The position numbers were made by a program, and so were the translations under genes. Under the pieces are notes generated by a model. That model saw only the letters and a list, made by a program, of their open reading frames with translations. It was not told the origin of the DNA and did not search any database. Positions 1,432-30,426 of a stretch of DNA of 32,035 bases are shown in pieces. Origin of the DNA: a virus; IMG/VR virus record IMGVR_UViG_3300010151_000073, positions 1 through 32,035 of that record; one strand, written 5' to 3'. The first letter of the stretch is position 1, and the number at the start of each line of letters is the position of its first letter.

Positions 1432-1815
1432 ATGGCAGATGTAAGATATATAAATATTGATTTCCCTTTTAGGAATAGTGAAAAGGGTTTTTACTTTAAA
1501 TTAAATGAAAGTGATAAAGAAGCAATTAAAGCAGATTTATTACATCTTTTATTAACTAATAAAGGTGAAAGACTCTATATGCCTGATTTCGGTAGCGATT
1601 TGAAGAAGTTTATATTCCAACCTAATGATAATATTACCCATAGTGAAATTAAAGATAATTTAAATGAAACAATAAAAAGGTATATACCAAATTTAGTAGT
1701 TGATAGTATAGATTTTAAGAAAAATGAAATAGAAGAATTAATAATAGTAGAATTAAAATATACGGTTATAGATGGTACTTTCGCATCTTCCGATATTTTA
1801 GAGATAACACTTTAA
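1432..1815 (+). CDS. 25: Baseplate wedge subunit, gp25-like (GPW/gp25 family)
   Basis: This 127-residue protein matches the T4 gp25 / P2 gpW family in length (T4 gp25 is about 130 residues) and in its core signature. IKADLLHLLLTNKGER followed by MPDFGSDL (about residues 32-56) carries the conserved G-E-R and P-x-F-G pattern near the middle. In contractile phages this protein forms the core of the baseplate wedge together with gp6 and gp53 and links to the sheath. It is the first gene of the virion block, preceded by the ATATTTATA box and followed 2 bases later by the gp6-like gene, the usual partner. There is no Shine-Dalgarno sequence before the ATG. Confidence 0.92.
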   Translation: MADVRYINIDFPFRNSEKGFYFKLNESDKEAIKADLLHLLLTNKGERLYMPDFGSDLKKFIFQPNDNITHSEIKDNLNETIKRYIPNLVVDSIDFKKNEIEELIIVELKYTVIDGTFASSDILEITL

Positions 1816-13275: not shown

Positions 13276-16200
13276 ATGCCACAGAACAATCAAAATAATA
13301 ATCAAACTAATAACAACTCTAATAAAGTTATTAAAGTAACTGGTTATGCCAAAAGAAAATTTTTTGATGGTGGTATAGAATATAGGGATTTTAGTGATGA
13401 TTTAGTAGGATTACAATTAACTAATGAAGGGGGTACACCTTTATTTACATTGGGTAATTTTAAAGTTACTACTAATTTAAGTCCTAAATTAAACAAAACT
13501 TATAATCAAGGAACGTACTCTAATTTTTTTAGTTTAGATGATTTAGATGATGGGCAAAAGATAAGTGTAAAAGTACAAAAAAATCAAAAAGCGGGGTTAA
13601 ATTTAGATATAACCGACCCCTTAAGTTATATACTTTATGGTTCAGCAGAAGAAAAAATTAGAGTATCTTTAGAATATATAAATGAATACTTTCCTGCAGC
13701 TATTTATGTTGAGAATACTATTGGAAGTGTGAGTGGTAATAATATCACTAATTATAGTTATAATAATTTAAGTGATGAATCTACATTTTACGTCAACACC
13801 AATTATTTTAGTAACCCTTTTAATATTACCCACACAGTTGATAGGATAAATACTTCTGATGAAGACACGTCTAACCCTTTAAGAAATTTAACTTTAAATT
13901 ATAAAAATTATGTTGTAGAACATAATGGTATAAGTAAAAAAATTAAACTACTAACTGGTTCTACAACTACCACAAATGGAATAATTAGGGTAGTAGTGGA
14001 TGGAAATCCATTTCCTGAAATAACAGGTATAAATTTTTCTCAGTTTACTTTTTTAAATGGGGTAACAGATGCTTCTATACCATTTTTTATTAAACCTAAT
14101 GAGATACAGTGTGAAAATTTCTTTTCTGGGTTAAATAACTTAGAAAAAAATCTTTTAAATAGAAATGTCTACCCTATTTATACTGCCACTTTTAGCACCC
14201 CTAAAGAAACTAATCAAGGTGTAATTGTATATAGTGATGAAAAATTATCATTTCCTATACTTAGTGATGGATATAATTTAAACTTCTTTGATGGTCTTTA
14301 TGTAACATATCTTAACAATATAATTTCTATTGGTGAGGAGTTAGATAAATTTAAAACCGATATTATAAAAAGAAAATACACTGCGGAAGTTATCACCGGG
14401 TTTGATACAATACCATCAGGTGATGGATCAGAAGATTTAGAATTAGATGGTGCAAAGGCAACTAAACTATTAAGAATATATGGGGTAGAATTCGATGAGG
14501 TTAAAAAATACATCGATGGAATTAAATTTGCTCACGTTATAACTTACGATAAGAAAAATAATACGCCAGACAGTTTAGTTAAAGACTTAGCTAATATGTT
14601 AGGGTTTGGTGAGTTTAATTTCTTAACTGATGTAAATATATTGAAAAATGTTTTACCAAGTAATGGTGGTGGTTTAATGAGTGGTACGTCCACTAACCTT
14701 AGTTTGGAAGAAATAGATATAGAGTTATATAGGAGATTAATTTTAAATGTCGCGTGGTTATGGAAAAGTAAAGGTGCGAGAAAAGCGATAGAATTTTTAT
14801 TTAGATTTATTGGGGCACCTGAATCCTTAGTTAATTTCGATGAACATATTGTGATTGCGGATAAACCAGTAAATATAGCCCAACTTAAGAGTATGTTATA
14901 TGTTTACACAGGAAGTTCTGATTTAAAAGATTTACCATTTGATAGTGATGGGTATCCATTACCTACACCTAATGGAGAAAGAGTCTTAATTGGTTTTGAT
15001 TCGGCAAATAATCCTATCTATGACACCACTTGGTTTCAAAAAGAAGGGGGTTGGTATAGAGAAACCGGTGGATTAAATCCACCAATAGATATAACTGAAG
15101 GTAATAACTCACATGAAGGACCTTATGATCGTGGTTCTTTCTACATGAATCAATTTAATACATCTATTTACCCTAATGATATTACCAGTAATTATATTAC
15201 CTTAACAGGGAACACAATTTACCAAAATCAGTTTATTAATTATAATGATGGGTTTATTAATGGTACTACAGATAATGATATTTTATATATCACACCTATT
15301 AACCCATTGAATAATCAAATTATTACAGAAGGTATTGAGGTTGATTTTTCCATTGTACCCTCACCCCCAATATCTGGTGGTACTACTATATTCCAAGATT
15401 TATGTATTCAGGCAAAAGAAGAATATGATCAGTGGGTAGAGTTAATAAAAGAAAATTGTGACCTAATATATTCTCCTGAATGGTTTAGGGTACAACAAAA
15501 CTATATAGTTGCAAAAAATAACTTAAATAAAGAGATTAGTAGTAGAAATGGAGATGATAATGATGCCTTAGAAATTTGTATTAATTTTGATTGTGAGAAT
15601 ATTGAAGTTATTGAAAATCCTTGTGAACAATATAATATGGTCGAAGACGGTGGATTAATTTATTTTACGGATGAAAATGGGAATCAAGTAAACTTTGATT
15701 CTTTTCCTAGATGTTGTGTTGCGGCAGGTGGAGATTATTTTTCTTATATAAATCAAAAGGGACAAAATTCATTTTTCTGTGCTAAAGAAGCCCCATGTAT
15801 AGGTAAACCAATCAATACTACCGGTGAGGCAGTTGTGTGGGAAATAGAAGGAGTAAATGCAGTACCTGATAATATAATAGAAATTAGACCATCAAATAAA
15901 CCCGTACCACAGTATGAAGAAAAATGTGTTAAACAATCTAATAGCGTAAGATTTGATTCTGTGGAAAGTAGAATATCATTTCTTAAAGATTGTACTACCA
16001 GACTTCGTTTAGAAAGTGGTATTGGTGAAAGTAATGAGATTTCTGGGTGTTTTCAATTAACAGAAGCTGGAGAATATTATTTTGGATTTAAAACAAAATC
16101 TAATAATACTGAATATGTTACTAGAATTACTAATGATCAATCTCCATACGTTGTTTATGATAAAAATAATAAACCTGTGGGTTACATACCTAACACACCA

Positions 16201-19200
16201 GGTGTTGGTTTAGATAGTGAAGGGGTAGTCGCAATAAATTATGTTAAAAATAATAAAGGGGTTATTTACCCTAATTACGAGCAATCATTTAACCAAAGTA
16301 GTGAGAACAACCCACAAAATGCTTTGGATAAATATCTTGCAGAAGTAAGAGCAGGGAGGAAAGTAAAAGGTTTTTCTAATTATTTTAAACCTATTGATTG
16401 TGATGGTAAATCCACAACTTTAATTTCTAGTGAAGAGTGTTGTGCATATTATGGATATGATCATTATTATGTAAATATATCACAAGAGGATGGTACTGTT
16501 GTTAGTGTAGTTTATTGTAGAGGAAATCAAAGGATACCTGATGATACTATAACTAAACCAAATGAAAGTACATCTCCTAGTTCTAAACCAGGAAAAGGGG
16601 GTAAAGGTGATTTATACAACCCAACTAAAAGTATTGATAAAGAAATTGAAAATATTAATAAGGAACAGAGTGACGTATCTAAAAAAATAGAAAATAGTCG
16701 AACCTTAACTAACAAAGAAAAATCTAATTTACGGTTAGAAAATATTAATTTAGAACAGAGAAAAATTGATTTATCTTCTCAAAAACAAAAATTAAACGTT
16801 AAAAACACAAGAACCATTCAACCAGCATTAGAAAAAGGGTATACTAAATATGTTCCAGGAAGTAATTTAAATGCGGTTACCACTAAAGGGGATGAAATAA
16901 GTGTAATAAAAGATAGGAAAGGTGTTTATAATAAATCAATTAAAGATAATTCAGAAGACAAAGTAACTACGGATTTTGGTTCACCATTTGGGGATCCTGA
17001 TTTAGAAGATATTACTAATTGGAAATTTTCGTCAGTTGATCAGTATGGTAGAATAACATTTACACCTGTAGATAGAAATAACAACTCAATATTGAATTGG
17101 GAATCAACTTCTGAGAGTGGTGCGGACATTTATAAGGAATGTTGTTTAAGTAAGGGTTACGCCTTTGGGGAATTCTTGATAAATCCTACAACCAATGAAC
17201 TTGTACCATATAATGGACAACCTAATAGTTTTACTAATGGTGCCACATTTGATGCTTGTATTGAACCTACTCATATACCATGTGATCAGATAACAGATGT
17301 AAAATTAATCTTTGGTAGTAATGGTTCAGATGGGTTCTTCCTACCTGAAAATACTGAAAGTAATGAGATTACTATTAAGTTTGATTATATGATTAAATAT
17401 GACGCAGAATCACTTATTAATTGTGCGGGTATTGAAGTTTGTCCAATACCATTAGATTTATATAATAATAGTATCTATAATTTAGATTGTAGAAATTTTA
17501 TAGTTTTCACACAATCGGAAGAGTTTAAAAATATATTACAAAAAAATGTACTTTATATTGATACGGACATTATACCCAACACAGAAGAATCTTTAGATTT
17601 AACTAAACCGGATAAAGACGGAATACCTAATTTAATACCTTATTGGGACACTAATAATATACAAGTATGGCAAACACCGGGTATTCAACAAACGATTGAA
17701 GATGGAGAGTGTTGTACGGCATATGGTGGAGCATATATTGATAAAAAGGTATGGGGTAATTTGAATGATGAACATGTTAGAGTTATTAAAAATGATTTTA
17801 AATCAACGTTAAAAGAAATATATGAATCAGGGGTAAATTCAACTAACGTTCCTTTATGGGTAGACGATGATTTTAAAACTACTGCATCAAAACTTATGTT
17901 ATCTACACTAGAAGTACAAAAAATTTTAAATGAGGAGTGTGTTAACTACGAAATATTTGAGGGACAAAATTATTGTGATGATTTTAATAAAATTATAACA
18001 ACAGAAAAAGTATGTGCACTATTAGTACCTAAAAAATTAGGTGGTTATAGTGAAATTTTAAAAGAGTATTGGAGATTAATTAATCAGTTAACATTAATGG
18101 AAAGTCAAGTGACTATATGTGTGGATAGAAATGAAAAAATAGGTGATTTAATTAAAGAGGTAGATAAAGAAAGAATTAAAGAAGAGGTAGATAAAGAAAG
18201 AATTAAAGAAGATAGTAGAAAAAGTGAAGAAGAACTAGAAACGGAATATTCATTTAAAGAACATGAATTAAGAAATGTTGAAAAACAAATCAATGACATT
18301 GGGGAAATAAGAATAGCAATGGATTCGGTAAAAGAAGAAAATTTACCTAAAATAAATTGTAATTTATACCAAGATCAAATTAAATTAATACAAAATTATA
18401 ATGTAGACGAGTTTTGTAGAAAAGAAACTAATGGTGTATCCGATAATCCTGACGTAGTGTTTACTGCATATAATACATGTGTAGAAAGAAAAAGGTTAGA
18501 ATTAGGTCAAGAATTAAAAAAATATCAAGAGTTATACCAAAACTGTGTAAAGAGTAATGTAATTAGTGATGAAATAACTAAAGCTAGGAGTAATAATGAT
18601 TTAGTTACTAAAGATAGACTAACCACTGAATATGATTTTACTTTAAGGAATATAGATGAATTACAATCTACTGTATTTTGTGAAGATATAAGTACTCAGA
18701 ACGAACAATTAAGGGTGAATACGGAACAAGAAAATAATATTCAAAAGAATGTAGATATCGTCGCGAAAATATTAAATGTAGAGAGTAACACTATTAGAAA
18801 TGGTAATACAACTGAGTTATCTACACCACAAAAAATAGAAGTTAATAGAATTCTTAATACTCAAAAAAATGTAGAGAATAAATTAAGAATTAAGAAAGAA
18901 GAAATAGAAAAAGAAATTACTAAAATAGTTGGTGATAAAAAAAGAATTAAAACAGAATTAGAATTAGAAGAAAAAGACAAAGAAGAAATACTCATTAATA
19001 TTAAAGACGTTAAAAGTAATTTAGAAAATGAATTAGGTGATATTAAACAATCAGTGTGTTGTACAGAAACATTGTTATTAGTTCAGCAACTTCTACAACA
19101 ATTAAAAGTTGAAAGAAGTAGTGTTTATTATGAAACTGATTCCCTATATCAGCAATGGTATCTACAAAGATATAATAATTATTTATCTTCTATCCAAAGT

Positions 19201-21483
19201 AAAATGGCAACGGCATTTGAGTATATGGACGAACTTAAACTTAGTTTTAATGTGGAGGTAGATAATAATACTGTGGGTAGTATCCCACAAAACGATATTG
19301 TAACCAATCTCACCACATTACCGATTATGGATGTTAGTAACCCAATATGGAGATTTATACCACAAAATTATAGTGGAGTAGTTATTGACGGGACTCAATA
19401 TTATAGTAATCTTTTAGAAGATTCTATAACTGTCGCTTTAATACAACAAGGATATAGTGGGTTAGACGCAGTTTTCGAACCAAAGTGGCAAAATTTTGAA
19501 TTAAAAATACCACAAAGTGTTATAGAAAATTTAAATGGTGCGTATCCAGATAAACAATTTTTCTTATCATTTATGTTAGAACAATATGAATGTAATGTGT
19601 GTTTATTATTAGATAATATACAAATTAATTATAAAACATATGATATATTACCTTTTAATAATACAGAAGGTAATGGGTTACCAGAATTGAATTGTGTTAT
19701 AGACAATAGAAAATCTTGGGTATATGTTGGTGACAGTATAACCCCAGTTAGTTATTTACCTGATGGGGAATGTCAAAAAAATGAAGTAACCTGTTCAACT
19801 CCATTACAAATAACTGCACAAAATAGATTATGGCAAAACTTAGAATATAGATATACAGAATATGATTTTAATCATTCAGACTTAATTATTAACTCTAAGT
19901 CCGCAGCATTCCAAATAGACCCTTCTAAGTCGATTGAATGTGACGTTTATAATTTTTGGAAAAATATTGATTGTGATGAATGTCCTTCTCCTTGTAGTAG
20001 TGGAGATAGTGTGACATATGACGGAGAATTTTTATATACTGGTGGTACTTCTGAAAGTTATAGTTTATCATTATCCGGTACATCTACAGGTACTATGTTA
20101 GGTGATTGTGGAATTTATAAGGGTGAGTTAGAAAACATAGTAGAACATATAAAAGAAGAGTATTATAATTTAACTGCAGATTATCCTTCCTCAATAAATG
20201 CGGGATATTGGGATTTAATTGAAAAAGGTGGTAGTAGTGAAGAAATTTTAATTGTGAACAATGATTGTAACACACAAACTATAGTAATTGGTGATAGAGA
20301 AAATTTAAATAACGACCAACGATTAATTGTAGAGGAAGGTGATGGTACTATATCACTATTTGGTTTATACGTATATAGTGGGTCAACATCTTACAGTGGT
20401 GGGGAAATAATTGATATTATTAGTGGTGTTTCCGCACAAACATTCAACCAAACTTCGGGAATGACAGAAGAGTGTTGTAAAAATTTAAGTACAATTTTAT
20501 CAAATAAAGGTAAGTATGGGTTAGGTTTAGATAAAAATTATAGTTGGGATAGTACACTTAGTGGGTGTACCTGGAGAGAAATAAATGATGGACAAGGTGA
20601 TTGTACTCATTGTGGTAACACTACACATTCTTCATTTACGGGGACTAGTAGTGGTGTCACATGTGAAGTCGTAAATAAAACAATTTGTGTAAATCCATTA
20701 GATTTCTTAGAGCAACCACCTTCTAAAATTAAAGTTAAAGAGGTATTTGATGAAATGGTTCAAAGTAATCTTATAAATGCACAAAATAGACAGACTATTA
20801 GTGGTTATCCTACTTTAAAATTATTTTATGAACTTTATTTAAAAGCTAGTAATTGTGGGGAACAATATAGTGGAAAACTCACATATAATAACCTATTCCA
20901 ATTTATGGATTTAATCGGTGATTACTGGTTAGAGTTAATAGAACAAGTTATACCTTCTACTACAATAATGGAAGGATGTGATAATTCAGGTAAAATTTAT
21001 AGAAATACTATTTTTGATAATAATAAATTTGTTTATAAAAAATATGTTTTAAATTACTTAGAGGTAACCGATGATTGTACAGTAAGTGGTGTTACACAAG
21101 ATTCTATAGGGCAAGAAACAGTAGACGTTGCAGTAGAAGAAATTTGTTTAGGTGGTGGATGTTTACCACAAGAAAGTAATGATTGTCAAGAAGAGATTTT
21201 ACAAATACAACAACAAATAAGTGATTTACAAACCCAACTTGATACTGCTACTAATCAGATAACTGCTACACAATTAGCAATTAATACTATTAAGAATGAC
21301 ATTAAAAATCAAAATTCTAATAATGAATCTACAATAGTACAAAATGATGGAAATGGAAAAGAAATAGAAGAGATTAAATTACAACAAAAAGAAAAAGAAA
21401 GTTTAAAAGAAACCCAAATAATAAAGCAACAACAACAGAATAAAGAAACACAGGCTAGAGAAAAAAGAAATAGTAGAAGTTAA
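13276..21483 (+). CDS. Giant multidomain tail/baseplate protein (2735 residues) with repeated Cys-Cys modules
   Basis: This is the longest gene here. Residues about 487-515 (ILNVAWLWKSKGARKAIEFL and on to FRFIGAPE) resemble the core of P2 gpI-type tail proteins, which suggests the N-terminal part sits in the baseplate. A small module beginning with a Cys-Cys pair recurs at residues 813, 1055, 1289, 1479 and 2400; four of the five have a Gly a few residues later and a later Cys is often present. Coiled-coil segments lie near 1120-1175, from about 1600 to 1960 (with a perfect 27-bp tandem duplication) and in the last 100 residues, which are Gln/Lys/Glu-rich. The segment around residues 2278-2352 resembles the C-terminus of the next protein. 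Such a chain could be a long rigid fibre or arm rooted in the baseplate. The ATG at 13276 is preferred over one at 13272, which is out of frame. Confidence 0.85.
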   Translation: MPQNNQNNNQTNNNSNKVIKVTGYAKRKFFDGGIEYRDFSDDLVGLQLTNEGGTPLFTLGNFKVTTNLSPKLNKTYNQGTYSNFFSLDDLDDGQKISVKVQKNQKAGLNLDITDPLSYILYGSAEEKIRVSLEYINEYFPAAIYVENTIGSVSGNNITNYSYNNLSDESTFYVNTNYFSNPFNITHTVDRINTSDEDTSNPLRNLTLNYKNYVVEHNGISKKIKLLTGSTTTTNGIIRVVVDGNPFPEITGINFSQFTFLNGVTDASIPFFIKPNEIQCENFFSGLNNLEKNLLNRNVYPIYTATFSTPKETNQGVIVYSDEKLSFPILSDGYNLNFFDGLYVTYLNNIISIGEELDKFKTDIIKRKYTAEVITGFDTIPSGDGSEDLELDGAKATKLLRIYGVEFDEVKKYIDGIKFAHVITYDKKNNTPDSLVKDLANMLGFGEFNFLTDVNILKNVLPSNGGGLMSGTSTNLSLEEIDIELYRRLILNVAWLWKSKGARKAIEFLFRFIGAPESLVNFDEHIVIADKPVNIAQLKSMLYVYTGSSDLKDLPFDSDGYPLPTPNGERVLIGFDSANNPIYDTTWFQKEGGWYRETGGLNPPIDITEGNNSHEGPYDRGSFYMNQFNTSIYPNDITSNYITLTGNTIYQNQFINYNDGFINGTTDNDILYITPINPLNNQIITEGIEVDFSIVPSPPISGGTTIFQDLCIQAKEEYDQWVELIKENCDLIYSPEWFRVQQNYIVAKNNLNKEISSRNGDDNDALEICINFDCENIEVIENPCEQYNMVEDGGLIYFTDENGNQVNFDSFPRCCVAAGGDYFSYINQKGQNSFFCAKEAPCIGKPINTTGEAVVWEIEGVNAVPDNIIEIRPSNKPVPQYEEKCVKQSNSVRFDSVESRISFLKDCTTRLRLESGIGESNEISGCFQLTEAGEYYFGFKTKSNNTEYVTRITNDQSPYVVYDKNNKPVGYIPNTPGVGLDSEGVVAINYVKNNKGVIYPNYEQSFNQSSENNPQNALDKYLAEVRAGRKVKGFSNYFKPIDCDGKSTTLISSEECCAYYGYDHYYVNISQEDGTVVSVVYCRGNQRIPDDTITKPNESTSPSSKPGKGGKGDLYNPTKSIDKEIENINKEQSDVSKKIENSRTLTNKEKSNLRLENINLEQRKIDLSSQKQKLNVKNTRTIQPALEKGYTKYVPGSNLNAVTTKGDEISVIKDRKGVYNKSIKDNSEDKVTTDFGSPFGDPDLEDITNWKFSSVDQYGRITFTPVDRNNNSILNWESTSESGADIYKECCLSKGYAFGEFLINPTTNELVPYNGQPNSFTNGATFDACIEPTHIPCDQITDVKLIFGSNGSDGFFLPENTESNEITIKFDYMIKYDAESLINCAGIEVCPIPLDLYNNSIYNLDCRNFIVFTQSEEFKNILQKNVLYIDTDIIPNTEESLDLTKPDKDGIPNLIPYWDTNNIQVWQTPGIQQTIEDGECCTAYGGAYIDKKVWGNLNDEHVRVIKNDFKSTLKEIYESGVNSTNVPLWVDDDFKTTASKLMLSTLEVQKILNEECVNYEIFEGQNYCDDFNKIITTEKVCALLVPKKLGGYSEILKEYWRLINQLTLMESQVTICVDRNEKIGDLIKEVDKERIKEEVDKERIKEDSRKSEEELETEYSFKEHELRNVEKQINDIGEIRIAMDSVKEENLPKINCNLYQDQIKLIQNYNVDEFCRKETNGVSDNPDVVFTAYNTCVERKRLELGQELKKYQELYQNCVKSNVISDEITKARSNNDLVTKDRLTTEYDFTLRNIDELQSTVFCEDISTQNEQLRVNTEQENNIQKNVDIVAKILNVESNTIRNGNTTELSTPQKIEVNRILNTQKNVENKLRIKKEEIEKEITKIVGDKKRIKTELELEEKDKEEILINIKDVKSNLENELGDIKQSVCCTETLLLVQQLLQQLKVERSSVYYETDSLYQQWYLQRYNNYLSSIQSKMATAFEYMDELKLSFNVEVDNNTVGSIPQNDIVTNLTTLPIMDVSNPIWRFIPQNYSGVVIDGTQYYSNLLEDSITVALIQQGYSGLDAVFEPKWQNFELKIPQSVIENLNGAYPDKQFFLSFMLEQYECNVCLLLDNIQINYKTYDILPFNNTEGNGLPELNCVIDNRKSWVYVGDSITPVSYLPDGECQKNEVTCSTPLQITAQNRLWQNLEYRYTEYDFNHSDLIINSKSAAFQIDPSKSIECDVYNFWKNIDCDECPSPCSSGDSVTYDGEFLYTGGTSESYSLSLSGTSTGTMLGDCGIYKGELENIVEHIKEEYYNLTADYPSSINAGYWDLIEKGGSSEEILIVNNDCNTQTIVIGDRENLNNDQRLIVEEGDGTISLFGLYVYSGSTSYSGGEIIDIISGVSAQTFNQTSGMTEECCKNLSTILSNKGKYGLGLDKNYSWDSTLSGCTWREINDGQGDCTHCGNTTHSSFTGTSSGVTCEVVNKTICVNPLDFLEQPPSKIKVKEVFDEMVQSNLINAQNRQTISGYPTLKLFYELYLKASNCGEQYSGKLTYNNLFQFMDLIGDYWLELIEQVIPSTTIMEGCDNSGKIYRNTIFDNNKFVYKKYVLNYLEVTDDCTVSGVTQDSIGQETVDVAVEEICLGGGCLPQESNDCQEEILQIQQQISDLQTQLDTATNQITATQLAINTIKNDIKNQNSNNESTIVQNDGNGKEIEEIKLQQKEKESLKETQIIKQQQQNKETQAREKRNSRS
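18157..18210 (+). repeat. Perfect 27-bp in-frame tandem duplication
   Basis: The 27-base unit beginning GAGGTAGATAAAGAAAGA occurs twice back to back (18157-18183 and 18184-18210) with no mismatch. It encodes EVDKERIKE twice, inside the long coiled coil of the 2735-residue protein. The absence of synonymous differences suggests a recent duplication or slippage. Confidence 0.95.
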
Positions 21484-22275: not shown

Positions 22276-25212
22276 ATGGCGAAAATTAAAGGAAATATTA
22301 TAAATCCACTTACAGTAAATGGTAATGTTATTGTAGAAAACGAAGTAAGGACAGAATTAAATATTAATCTGAACATTAATTATTTAGCAAATTCTCTTTC
22401 CCCATCTTTATTTACTATTAATAATGCCTATTTTATGGATGATTTTTCCCAAATCAGAAATTTAATTTTTAAAAATGTACCAGTATCTTTAGGTAATGTG
22501 GCATTAAATACTTCATCAGTAAATAAATTATGTTTATTTAAATATGAAGTAGATGATGATGGTATACTTAAAGAGGTTAATATTTTTGATAATATACCTA
22601 TGCAATATATTGATGGGGGGAAAACTTATTTACATTATGGTGCGATAAGTGAAAAGAAAATTTATTTAGGGTGGGAGCCACTCAGTAATGAAGATAAATA
22701 TTCCCATGAAGAAAGATCAGATGTTTATGGTTTTGATTACCCACAGTTTACCCCTAGAGGTACACGTAAGATACCAATTTCGGGTAGTAATGATACATTA
22801 TGTGGTCCGATTACTTATGAAGGAAATGAATATACCTATGATAGATTAAATTATAATTGGTTATTTGGACAAAGGGCGGGAATAAATTTCCAAACTATTG
22901 AAAGTGGTGCAACACCAGTAGTTATAACTGGTTCGGTAGTTTCTCAAGAAGGATGTGCATCCATTTCCAACCAAAACGGAGAATTATTATTTTATACAGA
23001 TGGAAATACTGTTTATACCAGTGGTAATACAGTGATGGTACAAGGATCAAACCTAAGTAGTTCGGGTACGTCTACGCAGTCATCGTTAATAGTTCCCCAA
23101 CCTAATAGTAAAAATTATTATTTATTTACGACAGATTATGAGGGTAACCCTAATGGTTTTGAATATAGTATTGTGGATATGGTAAAACAAGATGGTGAAG
23201 GACAAGTTACTTTAAAAAATCTTAAATTAATTCCCTTCCCTGTTACCGAAAAAGTTACTGCTTGTTCACATGAAAATGAAGTAGATTATTGGATTATAAC
23301 TCACACTAGTGGCGATTCTAAATTTTATTCTTATAGATTAAATACTGGAGGTTTAATTGGACCAGTTATTAGTGATACGGGGGTAACACACACTACTAGT
23401 AGGGGATATATGAAAACATCACCAGATAGTAAAAAATTAATTTCGTTATTATATGATGAAAATATAATTCAGATATTGGATTTTAACAATACGGGTGGTA
23501 CTTTGTCGAATGAAATTTTAATTAGTGGGGAAACCAGATTTGGTCAAGGACCATATGGGTTAGAGTATTCATCTGATTCTACTAAATTCTATGTGAGTGA
23601 TGGTGCAGCTAATTTAATAATTCAATATGATTTAACATACAGTTCTACAACTCAAATATTAGAGAATAGTATTATTGTGGCTGAATTACCTGAAGATACT
23701 AGCTTAGGTGCATTACAAATGGGTCCAGATGAAAAGATATATGCTGCCGATTATTTAAGAAATTTTTTACATGTGATTCATAGACCTAATGGTTTAGGTG
23801 TACAATGTAATTTTAATGAACGAGGTTTTTCATTAACAGGTATTAGTAGTGGGGTTACATCTACATGGGGGTTACCTAATGTTATAACTACTAAAACCCT
23901 TTCTTGTGATAGATATGTTTATGTAAGTAAAAGAGGAAGAACACCTTTTGATTTTGAATTGGTTATGAATGATGTATCAGATGTTGTTACACCTAACAAA
24001 CTTAATTTTACTGCAGAAGTTTACCCCTATAATATAGAAGCAGGTGCATTTAATAGAGAGCCCTCATATGAACAAGTTTATAATTATACTGAATTTAGTG
24101 CAACTACTGGATATAGTGAAACCCAATTAAACATACCATTAAATAGAATTGATGAGGGTGAGTTTTTAATTAAAGGTTATTACGATTACCCTATAAAGAC
24201 TTTATTACAAAGAGAATTAGAAATAAGAAGAAATACTGTTAATACTTATAAAATAGGTACGGAATATAATATATATAATCCTGAAACGGACTGGTATTTT
24301 CTAAATATTTATGAAGCAGATAAACCATTCTTCGTTAACACGGATGTGGCAACTACTAATCTAATCTCAAATTTAACAGTTAATTCATTTATTACCACAT
24401 CAGGACAAACTAGGTTTGGATATCAATCGTTATCTGATCCTATTGTAACATATAATGGAGTACAATTAGCAAAAGGTTTGGAATATAGTTCTAATACTGA
24501 AACAGAAGGTATTTCTTATGTTGATTTTTATACACCGACTTTAGCTGATAGGGTGGTAACATTAGTATTTGTTTTTGATGGTCAAGCTGAAAATTTAAAA
24601 GTGGATTCATATGTAGTTACGTCCCCTATTGTGAGTGGTGTAACTAATAAACAACCTGATGATATTAAATTATATTATAATACTACTGAAAATACTTTTG
24701 AATATTATCTACCTGTTCTACCCCAAGGTGATGTAGGATTATCACTAAATGGTGAACTATTATCTAACAATATTGAATATATGATTTCATCTTCTAACCC
24801 TAAAAGAATTATAATTTTAGTAGAAGTAAAACCCAGAGATATTATACAAGCATTTTATAACCCAATAACGGGGTTATTTGGTCCTTTACAAACTAACAGA
24901 CCTACATTATCTTGGACAATAAGTAACTCACCCATTTTGGGACAAAGTGGTGTATTTACTGTTGAGGTAACTGATGAAGATGATAAACATTTTGAAAACA
25001 TACAATATATTGCAACTACACCTTATATAATAGATGAAGATAGTTATTCAGTGGAGATGGATTTTAGTGATGCAGTTGCAGGTGACAAATTAATATATAG
25101 GGTAAAAAATCAAAAATTTTATACACCTATAGTTGGGGAAATAATAACAAGTATAGCTTATAGTGATACTGTTCCGATAGAAATAGTCACTAATAAGGGA
25201 AATATTTATTAA
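22276..25212 (+). CDS. Fibre-type protein with a Bacteroidota-like beta-propeller (978 residues)
   Basis: Residues about 194-540 form a recognisable propeller of the kind common in Bacteroidota secreted and gliding-type proteins: NWLFGQRAGINF, then EGCASISNQNGELLFYTDGN with STQSSLIVPQP, and later blades with KTSPDSKKLI, YGLEYSSDSTKFYVSD and MGPDEKIYAADY. The SPD/SSDS blade signatures are typical. No signal peptide or T9SS C-terminal domain is seen, so it is built as a virion protein rather than a secreted one. The flanks (1-190 and 540-978) are beta-rich; the C-terminal part shows repeated units with VTYNGVQLAKGLEYS and VGLSLNGELLSNNIEY, alike enough to suggest a duplicated small domain. Probable role: adsorption or receptor binding, by inference from fold and its place beside fibre-type genes. 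Confidence 0.85.
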   Translation: MAKIKGNIINPLTVNGNVIVENEVRTELNINLNINYLANSLSPSLFTINNAYFMDDFSQIRNLIFKNVPVSLGNVALNTSSVNKLCLFKYEVDDDGILKEVNIFDNIPMQYIDGGKTYLHYGAISEKKIYLGWEPLSNEDKYSHEERSDVYGFDYPQFTPRGTRKIPISGSNDTLCGPITYEGNEYTYDRLNYNWLFGQRAGINFQTIESGATPVVITGSVVSQEGCASISNQNGELLFYTDGNTVYTSGNTVMVQGSNLSSSGTSTQSSLIVPQPNSKNYYLFTTDYEGNPNGFEYSIVDMVKQDGEGQVTLKNLKLIPFPVTEKVTACSHENEVDYWIITHTSGDSKFYSYRLNTGGLIGPVISDTGVTHTTSRGYMKTSPDSKKLISLLYDENIIQILDFNNTGGTLSNEILISGETRFGQGPYGLEYSSDSTKFYVSDGAANLIIQYDLTYSSTTQILENSIIVAELPEDTSLGALQMGPDEKIYAADYLRNFLHVIHRPNGLGVQCNFNERGFSLTGISSGVTSTWGLPNVITTKTLSCDRYVYVSKRGRTPFDFELVMNDVSDVVTPNKLNFTAEVYPYNIEAGAFNREPSYEQVYNYTEFSATTGYSETQLNIPLNRIDEGEFLIKGYYDYPIKTLLQRELEIRRNTVNTYKIGTEYNIYNPETDWYFLNIYEADKPFFVNTDVATTNLISNLTVNSFITTSGQTRFGYQSLSDPIVTYNGVQLAKGLEYSSNTETEGISYVDFYTPTLADRVVTLVFVFDGQAENLKVDSYVVTSPIVSGVTNKQPDDIKLYYNTTENTFEYYLPVLPQGDVGLSLNGELLSNNIEYMISSSNPKRIIILVEVKPRDIIQAFYNPITGLFGPLQTNRPTLSWTISNSPILGQSGVFTVEVTDEDDKHFENIQYIATTPYIIDEDSYSVEMDFSDAVAGDKLIYRVKNQKFYTPIVGEIITSIAYSDTVPIEIVTNKGNIY

Positions 25213-25256: not shown

Positions 25257-27461
25257 ATGAGTTACATAAATAAACAAAATACCGCACTAGTAAGAGTAAA
25301 GTTAACAGATATAGGTAGAGAACAATTGGCACAAGGAAAATTGACCTATAATTCGTGGTTAGCGGGTGATTCAGAGGTAGATTATAATTACGTTAAGGGA
25401 TGGAAAGAATTTGTTCCTAGTAGCGACGCTTCAACAGGAGAATTTTATTTTTATGGTGGGGATGGTTCAGTAACTAAAAATATTTATTCTAAGGTATTAA
25501 GACCAAAAGATGAACAACCTTATTTCACATCTTTCTTATTAGATAATAATAATGAGTTTATACAATCTATTGATACTAATAGTAGTTTACAGTTAATTAA
25601 AGGAGTTGTAAGTAATCAAGCGGCAGATAGAGGATTTTTCTCAGGATCTACAGTAGATGTAGGTTTAACCGCACAAACTTCACAAAGATTTATTAAAGAA
25701 AGTGGTACTATAGATTTAAGTAATTTTACTGGAGAAATAGATACAACACCATTTGTACAAGGGGTGTTAAGTGGTATAACTTTAACTGCAACTAGCGAGG
25801 ATGATTTTATAATGTTTAGGTTTAGTAACCCAACATTAGGTAATATTACCACACCAACAATGACGGCAGCGACAATAAATCAATTTTATAACATTACTAC
25901 TATTAGTGGATCTACCATTAAAGTAGATAGAGAATTACCAACATTTAGTGGTTTTGCTGGCACAATTATTACATATTATACCTTACCAGGAGGAGATGAT
26001 CCCGAAGATAGTTACTATGGACTACCTTCTCTTTCTTCATATTGGAATACAGGTACACTTTCTTTTGATAGTAGTTGTGATATTTGTGTAGAAAACATAC
26101 CAGTTTGGAATATGAATAATGTGTGGACTGAAAATATGGCAGGACAATTTAAAGATGATTTAGAAAATTATCATAACCACAATTTATTTGGTTCAGAACA
26201 ATATGCGGGAACAAAACAATTTTTAAAATATAATGAAACACCAACCTTAAATTTAAGTAGTGATAGGTTATCTGTTAGTTATATGGACCCATATATAAAA
26301 GGAATTTCAATTATTCATTATACTAATAGTTGTATTTCTAACTTTTATGGTGAAATGTTTAATATTGATGGTAATAGTGGTAAGTTATTAAATTTAGATG
26401 TACCAGTACTATGGCATAGACGAAATGAAGGTACTGGTAGTGGTACTACATTAGGGATGAGATTTGTAAGTGATACTATAGAAAAAACTCTAACTAATAC
26501 GGACATTGAATATTATGATTTAATTGAATTTAGTGGTATGAGCGTTACCCCAAATGCACCCTTATCGGTTGGTAAGGTATTCCCACAACTTAAAATAGTT
26601 GTTATTGATAATGAAGAATTATTGGCGGCAATGTCTTATAAATCAAATAGAAATTATAGTTTACCTGATTTATCTGCGAGTTTAATCCCACCAGTCGATG
26701 GTGATTGTACTGGTTGTATAGAGGCAGGGGAAACAATGTATTTAACTTACGGTTTACAATATAGTGGTACAAGTGGATTTACATCTGTCTTACCTTGCCA
26801 ACGATATACAGTGTTAGATAATAATACTGCAACGGATAAAGATTTACAATTTAGAATAAACAATGTAGATCAGTTACCTTATATGAGAAAATTAGAATCT
26901 CTTTCATATGATGGTTATGGTTTTTATGCCAATCAATTTGTTTTATTAAGTCAAAAAATTAATAAAGCAAATCAAACACGACCAAACCCATCTGATTGGA
27001 GAGAAATAGATTATACTAGTGTTAATATTACCAGTGGTGCATCGGAAACCATCAGCCCATTCTTATTAGAAAATCAAAATAGTAATAATACAGGTTTTAT
27101 TTTAAAAGGAAGTCAATATAATGGGGCTAGTGGTAACACATTTAATTTAGGTGTAGAATTAGATTTACCTAAAGGTGAAAGTTATGGAAAATTAACTTTT
27201 GGTGACGAAAGATTATTTTATGGTAACTTAAGAACATTTATAGGGGCAACAATTTATAAAACACTATTCACAATAAATGTAGACGGTGCTCAACTACAAA
27301 GTAGTTCTAATACCACTTATACTATTGGGGAAGATAGATTTGTATCTGAAGTAGGTATATTAGATAATGATGGTAATTTAGTAATGGTGGGGAAACTTTC
27401 TCGACCAATAAGAATAGCGGATAGTAGTACTGCCTCTATTGAATTAACAATTGATTTTTAA
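25257..27461 (+). CDS. Tail-collar-fibre-like protein A (734 residues)
   Basis: The N-terminus, YINKQNTALVRVKLTDIGRE followed by a Gln/Gly spacer and WLAGDSEVDY, resembles the attachment domain of phage tail-collar fibre proteins, which have a LT..G...I...G......GDG pattern. The C-terminus ends with FVSEVGILDNDGNLVMVGKL and a final hydrophobic strand, also typical of that group. Both ends match the next gene, so the two are paralogues with different middles. The middle (about residues 150-690) is beta-rich with CDICVEN and CTGCIEAGE cysteine pairs. Probable role: a fibre or decoration attached to the baseplate, by inference. The gene starts after the ATATTTATA box and ends 11 bases before its paralogue. 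Confidence 0.82.
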   Translation: MSYINKQNTALVRVKLTDIGREQLAQGKLTYNSWLAGDSEVDYNYVKGWKEFVPSSDASTGEFYFYGGDGSVTKNIYSKVLRPKDEQPYFTSFLLDNNNEFIQSIDTNSSLQLIKGVVSNQAADRGFFSGSTVDVGLTAQTSQRFIKESGTIDLSNFTGEIDTTPFVQGVLSGITLTATSEDDFIMFRFSNPTLGNITTPTMTAATINQFYNITTISGSTIKVDRELPTFSGFAGTIITYYTLPGGDDPEDSYYGLPSLSSYWNTGTLSFDSSCDICVENIPVWNMNNVWTENMAGQFKDDLENYHNHNLFGSEQYAGTKQFLKYNETPTLNLSSDRLSVSYMDPYIKGISIIHYTNSCISNFYGEMFNIDGNSGKLLNLDVPVLWHRRNEGTGSGTTLGMRFVSDTIEKTLTNTDIEYYDLIEFSGMSVTPNAPLSVGKVFPQLKIVVIDNEELLAAMSYKSNRNYSLPDLSASLIPPVDGDCTGCIEAGETMYLTYGLQYSGTSGFTSVLPCQRYTVLDNNTATDKDLQFRINNVDQLPYMRKLESLSYDGYGFYANQFVLLSQKINKANQTRPNPSDWREIDYTSVNITSGASETISPFLLENQNSNNTGFILKGSQYNGASGNTFNLGVELDLPKGESYGKLTFGDERLFYGNLRTFIGATIYKTLFTINVDGAQLQSSSNTTYTIGEDRFVSEVGILDNDGNLVMVGKLSRPIRIADSSTASIELTIDF

Positions 27462-27472
27462 AAAGTATTGAG

Positions 27473-28771
27473 ATGGGATTTATTAGTTCAGCAAACACAG
27501 TATCGATAACGGCAAAATTAACTTTAGCTGGAAGACAAAGATTACTTACTCAAAGTAATCAAATACTAACCCATTTTGTGATAGGAGATTCTGATGCAAA
27601 TTACCAAACTAGTGGTATTTTAAGTTCAGGGTTAGTTCCATCAAATAGTGGGGATTTAGGAGAAAATGGTGGAGTAAATGATAATATTGATGTCGGTGTA
27701 GGGATTAAAAATAAACTTTATTTGAGTAACACTCAAATTACAATAAAGTCGGTAGAGTCAGGTTCTAATGTCATAACCAATACTACTATACCATTAGGTG
27801 AAACAGTAGTAAGTGGAAATAACTTAACATATACAGTTATAGATAAAAATGATAAAACCTCTTCTTTTACTAATTATTTTGAAAGTTTAAGATTACCTAT
27901 ATTAGAGTCTAAGAAAAACTTATTTACAGGAACCACCTCAACAAGAGGAGGTTGGTTAGATACCGCATTTAGTGGTTTAGCAACAAATAAAGTATTAATG
28001 GTTGTAGCTAATAATGATAGTTATGGTGAATTAATTGATGGTAAAACTATAAAAACAACATTACCTATAGTAACAGGATACACATCGGGTGGTGAAGCCA
28101 CAGGAATAACTACTTATGATTGTTATTCCACCTTTGTTAATAGTGGACAATATAGTTTAGTACAATTAGATGCTAGATATAAAGATGGTTCAGTATTCAC
28201 TAATGGGTTATTTGGTACGGATTTTCCGGTAAGTTATATGGTTTCAGATAACGTGCAAAGACCGAACAATGACTCAGATAAAAGTTGGGCTACGGGTTAT
28301 GATGAATTTAAACCATTCAGTGTTAATTATAAACAATTAATAAACACTAAAACAGTTGCACCAACAGGGATAAATGTAGATAAAGTTATTGGGGTGGCGT
28401 ATTTAGATAAAGGTATTTTAGCATTTACTGACCCTACAATTGTAAATAATATTGCAATTGATTTTACGGGTGACACAGAAACGGGAACAGTAACTAATGA
28501 TTTAGGTTTTTATTATTATTCTGGTGGTACTTTTAATACTACTGTAGATAGTGTTGTTAATAATTTAGTACAAAATGTAATATGTATTGCTGGTAGAGGT
28601 GAATTTTTTAGATCCACTAATCCAACAATTGATATTAATGATGAAGTTAGGATTACAGAGATTGGAATTACTGACGTAACTGGTGAAGTATTGGCTATCG
28701 GTAAAGCAGATAGACAAATTATTAAAAAGAAAAATGATTTTGTAATATTTGATGTACAAGTTATTTTATAA
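27473..28771 (+). CDS. Tail-collar-fibre-like protein B (432 residues), paralogue of A
   Basis: The start, FISSANTVSITAKLTLAGRQ with FVIGDSDANY soon after, matches the N-terminal module of the preceding protein at equivalent positions (GDS at 38-40 versus 37-39). The C-terminus, VRITEIGITDVTGEVLAIGK followed by a terminal strand, matches that protein's last 50 residues. The middle is about 300 residues shorter and not obviously related. Two tandem paralogues that keep both ends but differ inside fit a duplicated fibre gene whose exposed part has diverged. It is the last gene of the virion block. The start at 27473 is an ATG with the context TATTGAG before it and no clear Shine-Dalgarno. Confidence 0.82.
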   Translation: MGFISSANTVSITAKLTLAGRQRLLTQSNQILTHFVIGDSDANYQTSGILSSGLVPSNSGDLGENGGVNDNIDVGVGIKNKLYLSNTQITIKSVESGSNVITNTTIPLGETVVSGNNLTYTVIDKNDKTSSFTNYFESLRLPILESKKNLFTGTTSTRGGWLDTAFSGLATNKVLMVVANNDSYGELIDGKTIKTTLPIVTGYTSGGEATGITTYDCYSTFVNSGQYSLVQLDARYKDGSVFTNGLFGTDFPVSYMVSDNVQRPNNDSDKSWATGYDEFKPFSVNYKQLINTKTVAPTGINVDKVIGVAYLDKGILAFTDPTIVNNIAIDFTGDTETGTVTNDLGFYYYSGGTFNTTVDSVVNNLVQNVICIAGRGEFFRSTNPTIDINDEVRITEIGITDVTGEVLAIGKADRQIIKKKNDFVIFDVQVIL

Positions 28772-28809: not shown

Positions 28810-29442
28810 ATGAGTAGAATTCTAGGGCTAGATGTGTCCACAAAAACTATAGGTATCGCACTTTTTGAAGATAAAGGTGAGAATGGTAAATTACAATTGT
28901 TAACACACATAACACCAAAAGTTAAACCTAAACCCACAAATAATATTGAAACACTTATTAGGAAAGTTCAAATATTTGAAGAGGATTTTTTAGAAAAATA
29001 TAGTGATATAGAAATTGATAGAGTTTTTATTGAAGAACCTTTATTAAGATCTAATAACGTAAATACAGTAGCAACATTATTGCGATTTAATGGTATGATA
29101 TGTAGGTCAGTATATGAAGTATTGAATATTGTGCCTGAATTTGTCTCCTCCTATGATGCTAGAAAATTTGCATTTCCAGAGTTAATGCAAATTAGATTAT
29201 TTAAAAAATCAGGAGATAGATATACTGAAAAAGAGATATTAAAAAAGAATCCCGTTTTATTTGGCGGGTTACCTTACGACATAGATAAAAAAGTAGTGAT
29301 ACACCAAAAAGTTAGTGAAATTGAACCCCAAGTTATATGGATGTATGATAAACACAACAAATTAACTAAAGAAAATTATGATATGACTGATGCATACGCA
29401 TGTGTGTTAGGTGGGATGAGAAAATGTGGAAACTGGGTATAA
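28810..29442 (+). CDS. ruvC: RuvC-like Holliday-junction resolvase
   Basis: This 210-residue protein has the RuvC fold signatures in the expected order. ILGLDVSTKTIGIALFE (Asp8) is the first strand with the catalytic Asp. VFIEEPLL supplies Glu75/76. YDMTDAYACVLGG near the end holds Asp191 and Asp194. The central FVSSYDARKF is also typical of phage RuvC-like proteins. RuvC-type enzymes cut four-way DNA junctions; in large phages they resolve recombination and packaging intermediates. Its length is somewhat above bacterial RuvC (about 170 residues), with an insertion at about 120-185 before the last motif. It is the first gene after the virion block. No Bacteroidota promoter was found directly in front of it, so it may be read through from upstream. 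Confidence 0.88.
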   Translation: MSRILGLDVSTKTIGIALFEDKGENGKLQLLTHITPKVKPKPTNNIETLIRKVQIFEEDFLEKYSDIEIDRVFIEEPLLRSNNVNTVATLLRFNGMICRSVYEVLNIVPEFVSSYDARKFAFPELMQIRLFKKSGDRYTEKEILKKNPVLFGGLPYDIDKKVVIHQKVSEIEPQVIWMYDKHNKLTKENYDMTDAYACVLGGMRKCGNWV

Positions 29443-29478: not shown

Positions 29479-30426
29479 ATGTCACAATTAGTTGTAGAAA
29501 TCTTAGAGGATGTATTAGGTAATTCTAAAAAACATTATGAAAACAAAAGTCAAATATCCTTTGATTGTCCCGTATGTTCATCCATTAAAGGTTTAGACGT
29601 TGGAGATGGAAAGGGTAATTTAGAAGTTAATTATTTTCATCATGTTTATAAATGTTGGGCTTGTTCAGAAACCTATGGTACACATGGAACATTAAATAAA
29701 CTTATTAGGAAGTATGGTAGTAAAAACCATATGAAACAATATCAGTTAGTTATACCTGATAATAAGAGAGTTGTTGTAGATAAAGAAAAGGTAGTTATAA
29801 CGGGATTACCCAAAAATTTTACACCGCTAACTATAGAAAGGAACGACAGTGGATATCAACAAGCAATACAATATCTTAGTAAAAGAAATATTGGTATAGA
29901 CTTAATTAAGAAATTTAATTTAGGTTACGCTAATGTGGGCGATTATAGAAATAGAATTATATTCCCATCATATGATAGTGAAAATAATATAAATTATTTT
30001 TTAGGAAGAAGTTTCGAAAATTATACTAAATTGAAATATAAAAATCCTGAAGTATCTAAAATGGAGATTATTTTTAATGAAGGAAAAATTAATTGGGATT
30101 CTAACATTTATTTAGTAGAAGGTGTATTCGATCATATCACACTACCAAATAGCATTCCTATGTTAGGTAAAGTATTAAATGATTTATTATTTAAAAAATT
30201 AATAGATAATGCATCCGCTAAAGTTATAATAGTTTTAGATAACGATGCAGAAAAAGATGCAATTAATCTTTATAAAAAATTAGATAGTACTAAATTGAAC
30301 GGTAGGGTATTAATGGTATATATGCCTAAACGATTTGATTTATCAGATGTACACCAAAAATTAGGGAGTAAGGGTATAATTAAATTAATTACTACCGCAA
30401 AACGTATAAAAGAAAGTTTATTATGA
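29479..30426 (+). CDS. DNA primase with zinc ribbon and Toprim domain
   Basis: The 315-residue protein has an N-terminal four-cysteine zinc site (CPVC at residues 30-33 and CWAC at 59-62) followed by the helix HGTLNKLIRKYG, the usual DNA-binding element of DnaG-type phage primases. The Toprim domain lies at about 208-290: YLVEGVFDHITLP carries the conserved Glu214 and VIIVLDNDAEKDA the DxD pair (Asp254, Asp256). It would make RNA primers for lagging-strand synthesis. No helicase domain is fused, so a separate helicase is expected elsewhere in the genome. It has its own Bacteroidota-type promoter and overlaps the next gene by four bases (ATGA). Organellar or bacterial DnaG is about twice as long; this is a compact phage form. 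Confidence 0.88.
   Translation: MSQLVVEILEDVLGNSKKHYENKSQISFDCPVCSSIKGLDVGDGKGNLEVNYFHHVYKCWACSETYGTHGTLNKLIRKYGSKNHMKQYQLVIPDNKRVVVDKEKVVITGLPKNFTPLTIERNDSGYQQAIQYLSKRNIGIDLIKKFNLGYANVGDYRNRIIFPSYDSENNINYFLGRSFENYTKLKYKNPEVSKMEIIFNEGKINWDSNIYLVEGVFDHITLPNSIPMLGKVLNDLLFKKLIDNASAKVIIVLDNDAEKDAINLYKKLDSTKLNGRVLMVYMPKRFDLSDVHQKLGSKGIIKLITTAKRIKESLL

Follow-up and report, generated by a model that had tools for sequence, protein, structure and literature searches.

How does a phage gene, probably for a tail fibre, come to contain a β-propeller of a type found in secreted proteins of Bacteroidota, and what could the propeller do there? The question is raised by IMGVR_UViG_3300010151_000073, an IMG/VR virus record whose 32,035 bases (here the window, the whole stretch of DNA analysed) have a GC content of 30% and contain a ribonucleotide reductase fragment, two tRNA genes and several huge genes without a family match. 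A preliminary description had read residues 194–540 of one 978-residue protein as a Bacteroidota propeller, had suggested that a host adhesin domain was captured and re-used for adsorption or that it mimics a host surface protein, and had proposed a profile search, a structure prediction and a phylogeny. The features considered are listed in Table 1. A DUF4934 match of a 667-residue window protein (0.22) was dropped as non-significant, and the promoter motif TANNTTTG showed no enrichment in the window, with a count of 26 vs 23 in shuffles.

Table 1 Features of the propeller gene and its surroundings in the window.
Feature	Position	Strand	Remark
Baseplate wedge subunit, gp25-like	1432..1815	+	phrog_261, 3.9e-22
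Baseplate wedge subunit, gp6-like; lineage marker in phage tree	1818..3641	+	phrog_219, 1.1e-20
Propeller-bearing, probable tail-fibre protein, 978 aa	22276..25212	+	ORF; orthologues syntenic in every clade A locus
N-terminal extension, residues 1–133	22276..22674	+	no match in sister proteins; pLDDT mostly <50
Anchor motif SNEDKYSHEERSDVYGFDYPQFTPRGTRKIPIS, residues 134–168	22675..22779	+	counterpart of sisters' N-terminal anchor
Linker, residues 169–193	22780..22854	+	conserved DTLCGP..Y.....YDR in clade A alignment
β-Propeller, residues 194–540	22855..23895	+	homologue of Bacteroidota T9SS cargo N-terminal domain
C-terminal module (C-module), residues 545–978	23908..25209	+	kept in propeller-less sister phages; pLDDT mostly 70–94
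734-aa downstream neighbour (MSYIN..KLTD.GRE)	25257..27461	+	always adjoins propeller gene; bait for propeller-less sisters
Second downstream neighbour, 432 aa	27473..28771	+	KLT..GR N-terminal motif common with 734-aa protein
RuvC-like Holliday junction resolvase, synteny marker	28810..29442	+	phrog_159, 3.6e-11
DNA primase, synteny marker	29479..30426	+	phrog_47, 1.3e-35

The propeller gene lies between the gp25/gp6-like wedge genes and the RuvC and primase genes, which places it in the baseplate/fibre cassette of a contractile-tail phage, in the same block as the tail fibre and spike genes of Flavobacterium phage immuto. Immuto and Microcystis phage Mel-JY01 are the nearest cultured relatives by gp6 (about 28–29% identity over the whole protein), and both share the gp25–gp6–fibre/spike genes–primase block, but they have neither the propeller nor a recognisable copy of the propeller gene. 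Likewise, HMM and hhalign comparisons of the N-terminal part, the propeller and the C-module with immuto, Mel-JY01 and the other window proteins returned nothing. A PHROG search with the window's own 978-residue protein gave no significant match, fibre families included, and phrog_2710 (tail fiber protein) weakly matched the C-module of one sister phage only (E 1.9e-5 over 54 residues). The assignment of the product as a tail fibre is thus probable from the cassette and from this weak match in a sister, and it falls short of proof.

Among the neighbours, the 734- and 432-residue downstream proteins both carry KLT..GR, so they could be paralogous and share a segment for attachment. Two genes upstream of the propeller gene, at 13276–21483, a 2735-residue protein without a family match is encoded; its counterparts in other relatives vary in length (about 1340–1750 residues) or are split, which makes it a candidate variable adsorption protein.

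Searches of Pfam, NCBIfam, PHROG and PDB sequences with the window protein revealed no significant propeller match. Bacterial genomes provided the relatives. A tblastn search against plasmids identified Hymenobacter proteins annotated as 'gliding motility-associated C-terminal domain' (2e-39), and a search of genome contigs revealed 261 relatives with 34–41% identity across the whole domain and a best E of 5e-69. Among the loci returned, apart from one phage contig (L028), every one with a group in its title belonged to Bacteroidota, Kapaibacterium, Ignavibacteria or Chlorobiota, and 43 of 297 Bacteroidota genomes had a propeller copy at E<=1e-60, many of them with several copies. The homology covers window residues of about 190–538 and ends sharply on either side. 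In the bacterial proteins examined, a hydrophobic leader immediately precedes the propeller and a PKD domain often follows it, while a T9SS type A or B sorting domain was found above cut-off at the C-terminus of seven of nine relatives. Outside phages, the sequence comparisons find relatives of the propeller only among secreted proteins from Bacteroidota and bacteria allied to them. The window protein exhibits no TIGR04131 or TIGR04183 sorting domain and no hydrophobic leader at its N-terminus, and its propeller is preceded by phage sequence. The absence of both secretion signals agrees with the preliminary description, as do the blade motifs that it quoted, which lie at W195–F205, E225–G243, S266–P276 and S382–L388.

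The predicted structure agrees with the homology. An AlphaFold2 run on the full-length protein with 71 aligned rows gave a pLDDT of mostly 80–97 for residues 190–540 and below 50 for residues 1–188; this deep alignment was used because the nine close rows gave a mean pLDDT of only 36.7. The modelled propeller contains 26 strands of at least three residues, a count that would fit about seven blades. Foldseek matched it to 7-bladed YVTN and lactonase-type propellers (1l0q, 4.9e-9; 4qrj, 1.7e-7); the likeness to these enzymes is one of fold only, as the phage propeller has no significant Pfam or NCBIfam match. The profile search and the structure prediction thus confirm residues 194–540, at the level of sequence and model, as a β-propeller whose homology with the domain at the N-terminus of T9SS cargo proteins extends along its whole length. 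The phage case also gives a handle on this cargo propeller family, which is large and has neither a Pfam model nor a known ligand.

Orthologues of the window's gene, at least 18 of them distinct, occur in conserved gene order on independent contigs of up to 254 kb; their carriers, hereafter clade A, belong to a family of large marine and freshwater phages. To find sister phages, we used an alignment of the 734-residue neighbour as the query, which recovered clade A and a set of more distant phages (L211–L215). The neighbour is 39–41% identical to the window's in the latter and about 65–75% identical within clade A. The gene order of the distant phages is that of the window (the gene in question, proteins of 712 and 400 residues, RuvC and primase), but their counterpart of the propeller gene encodes only 472–490 residues, typically about 474, and consists of an anchor of about 60 residues followed by the C-module. 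The propeller is absent, and the C-module matches window residues of about 551–978 with hmmsearch E values of 8e-75 to 1e-83. The canonical N-terminus of the sister proteins, RNKDILNVNMSSDICIF..P.F..SGASKI, aligns with window residues 134–168 (hhalign score 32.5 vs no more than 20.3 when the columns were shuffled 150 times), and from this alignment the order in the window protein is extension, anchor, linker, propeller and C-module. The extension is confined to propeller-bearing phages. The propeller sits exactly between the retained anchor and the C-module.

A search with the C-module added 49 further loci, with about 45 further non-propeller members; none of the 49 had a propeller, either in that gene or in the other ORFs covered. 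In six loci (L248, L253, L267, L280, L282 and L284) unrelated inserts occupy the same anchor/C-module junction, which is therefore an insertion hotspot. Taken together, the position of the propeller and the unrelated inserts in sister phages indicate that a conserved phage gene holds a bacterial module at such a hotspot. The states before and after a capture in a tail gene can thus be seen side by side, namely an empty junction, other inserts and a domain of a bacterial secreted protein. The inserts span roughly 140–290 residues and some are Cys-rich (CTPDYTLLEGGIC); a similar CLDGFTLVGENC stretch follows the last part of the propeller in one other locus, L115. In the window protein, C176 (22801–22803) and C544 (23905–23907) bracket the propeller and are conserved in all nine closest relatives (A1), and in the sister proteins, too, a Cys of the anchor is conserved where the junction lies.

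All clade A members come from metagenomes or from one single-cell assembly, a point in favour of an assembly artefact or a mis-binned bacterial gene. This reading, whose probability is negligible, is refuted by the recurrence of the gene in the same order and under purifying selection on independent contigs; moreover, the propeller protein lacks a signal peptide, and its C-module is common to propeller-less phages.

To examine the origin of the propeller, trees of 117 rows and, more carefully, of 41 rows were built, both without an outgroup and hence unrooted. In both, the clade A propellers formed one fully supported group on a long stem (0.76–0.89). A second group of phage propellers, clade B, was also a single group (support 99/96), with bacterial sequences around both clades, and joining A and B into one phage-only group was rejected (p-AU 0.020). 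The bacterial row nearest clade A was from Saprospiraceae (L070), with weak support (90/60). The preliminary description had foreseen either nesting among Bacteroidota cell-surface proteins, in favour of capture, or a phage-only clade, in favour of old phage ancestry; the result lies between the two, as a phage-only clade within a bacterial family, which is the pattern of an old capture. The trees indicate that the clade A propeller goes back to an old, single acquisition from bacteria and that clade B has a separate origin.

Because many bacterial classes, paralogues and long branches stand against two narrow phage clades, the propeller probably passed from bacteria to phages. The reverse, in which bacteria borrowed an ancient phage domain, is very improbable: the phage copies do form a clade of their own without a close bacterial relative, but bacterial diversity, paralogy and spread far exceed those of the phages, the two phage clades are not one, and sister phages of the lineage lack the propeller. 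The gp6 tree places clade A (100/99) beside the propeller-less phages (87/86) as its sister clade, so that gain in the former and loss in the latter both fit; the bacterial breadth favours gain. The claim of capture is therefore upheld by the propeller-less sisters and by the placement of a single clade inside a larger bacterial family. The words 'host' and 'adhesin' are not: one member comes from a Prochlorococcus single-cell assembly, and in the bacterial family, where no protein has a demonstrated function, the cargo may be something other than an adhesin.

Clade B (L117–L131) presents a different arrangement, for example at L124:5258–8465 on a 261-kb contig (G009) and at L121:5504–8487 on a 174-kb contig (G008). 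Its cassette comprises a barrel-like protein, a propeller–PKD protein without a sorting domain, a PKD-like protein and a separate T9SS type B (CHU_C) protein, each with a signal peptide, and the CHU_C domain matches reached 2.8e-15 and 2.1e-13. The cassette looks like a bacterial T9SS cargo protein divided among several phage genes. No C-module was found in clade B phages, which ruled them out as bearers of the empty gene.

We next consider what the propeller may do in clade A. Its identity to the window in distant clade A members is 56–66%, compared with 31–44% for the N-terminal part and 38–49% for the C-module, and is comparable to that of gp6 (67%) and of the 734-residue protein. The dN/dS of the propeller within clade A is mostly 0.03–0.2, saturated pairs being unreliable. 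The domain thus does not behave as a variable receptor-facing domain, as no other part of the protein is conserved so well. This slow evolution is unlike that of a host-range determinant, and it fits a purely structural role too. It also indicates that a captured domain can persist in a tail protein while being conserved rather than variable. Loops and strands are almost equally conserved in clade A (0.78 vs 0.80), whereas the bacterial propellers show 0.52 vs 0.59, and of the 33 residues whose fixation is specific to the clade, 21 are found in loops; the near-equal loop conservation would be in keeping with a functional surface.

The propeller might instead serve the fibre or baseplate as a spacer or as a hub for assembly, in a structural role without binding to the cell. 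This would account for a domain that is better conserved than the rest of the protein in phages from both marine and fresh waters, is under strong purifying selection and is kept in every clade A member found. We regard this main rival as possible but rather unlikely. The sister phages manage without a propeller, so the shared architecture does not need one, the unrelated inserts at the junction suggest an outward site, and the loops are themselves conserved.

The reading that we prefer, to which we give somewhat better than an even chance, is that of a captured propeller displayed on a virion appendage at the insertion spot and binding an invariant ligand. The gene product would belong to an appendage of the virion, probably as a tail fibre or as a protein of the baseplate periphery. 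In it the short anchor and the β-rich C-module provide a common frame within a large lineage of contractile-tail phages, and the spot between them would accept whole domains. In clade A, this spot would long ago have received a propeller of the 7-bladed type from T9SS cargo that a member of Bacteroidota or allied phyla secreted, with the signal peptide and the sorting domain left behind. Presence in the virion, display of the propeller and ligand binding are inferred. The displayed propeller may make the first cell contact through the invariant ligand, which may be a glycan on the cell surface or whatever the bacterial propeller itself binds, and variable specificity would be left to other cassette proteins such as the 2735-residue upstream protein. 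Re-use for adsorption, as first suggested, is plausible. The junction would then be a putative domain-display site, one that could be followed through many uncultured phages of aquatic habitats, and the capture is a testable case of how phage contact proteins may be built from bacterial parts.

Mimicry of a host protein, the other possibility raised at the outset, is the less likely reading. Here the propeller would resemble a host surface protein and engage or block the partner of that protein, for example the T9SS or the gliding attachment machinery. The T9SS sorting domains of the bacterial relatives are in keeping with this, and the exported propeller–PKD protein of clade B beside a CHU_C protein suggests that phages use the family at the cell surface too. 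We nevertheless judge mimicry improbable, because the bacterial propeller has no known partner, clade A has neither signal peptide nor sorting domain, and the long stem argues against a close copy of a present host protein. A broader conjecture, on which we would place only a slightly higher though still low probability, is that the junction is a general display site, that the propeller docks on the outer-surface partner of T9SS propellers and that the clade B cassette acts on the same partner from within an infected cell. If docking of this kind were true, adsorption would rely on a conserved component of the machinery with which the cell itself secretes or glides.

Capture of host-type domains by phage structural proteins has precedents. 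BACON domains, which are of a Bacteroidota secreted-protein type, occur in tail proteins of crAss-like phages and have been proposed to aid cell binding (PMC6949934). The two cases are alike in that a Bacteroidota secreted-type domain lies inside a tail-associated phage protein. BACON domains, however, are small, Ig-like and tandemly repeated in gut phages, whereas a single large propeller is found here in phages bearing gp6 and gp25, and, unlike in the BACON case, the propeller occupies a defined junction for which a propeller-less allele is known. Propellers with five or seven blades are also present in the receptor-binding proteins phi11 RBP, PRD1 P2 and phiKZ gp131C, and in phi11 RBP the propeller is a platform between a helical stem and a C-terminal tower (PMC4901313). 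In these tail or receptor-binding proteins, too, the propeller is one module among others, but their propellers are not reported there as sequence-related to T9SS cargo (PMC4901313), and no counterpart of the helical phi11 stem was seen in the window protein. The Bacteroidota cargo proteins combine a signal peptide, a propeller, often PKD and a sorting domain, whereas the phage propeller is embedded in a phage protein and has none of the other parts.

Phage-encoded T9SS cargo is known from the cryophage, whose cargo genes encode type A cargo enzymes (PMC7468147); clade B resembles it as phage T9SS cargo, but has instead an exported propeller–PKD protein and a separate CHU_C protein of type B. 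While the capture of host domains (BACON, Ig-like) is already known, a T9SS-cargo propeller at a hotspot with an empty allele appears to be new, and no published phage gene of this kind was found in the literature searched. The contact parts of this phage look pieced together from bacterial modules.

The host of these phages can be approached from two observations. One clade A contig of 83.8 kb (L028, QCKH01000004.1, the contig of IMGVR_UViG_2716884754_000002) lies in the Prochlorococcus single-cell assembly AG-409-L21, where it may stem from infection of the cell, from a particle attached to it or from a stray one. In addition, a Shine–Dalgarno motif was absent upstream of all 16 window genes checked, which in an AT-rich sequence is a weak host clue. 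The absence of this motif is usual in Bacteroidota.

Finally, the clade B cassette has apparently passed from one phage lineage to another, because its propellers form one clade while the carriers are scattered on the gp6 tree. The separated carriers are G009, G008/G312 and G311. Relatives of the clade B CHU_C protein were also observed in two huge uncultured phages of 635 and 642 kb, at 27436–27963 in LR745206.1 and 417785–418300 in LR756502.1, with four such places in the first record and three in the second.
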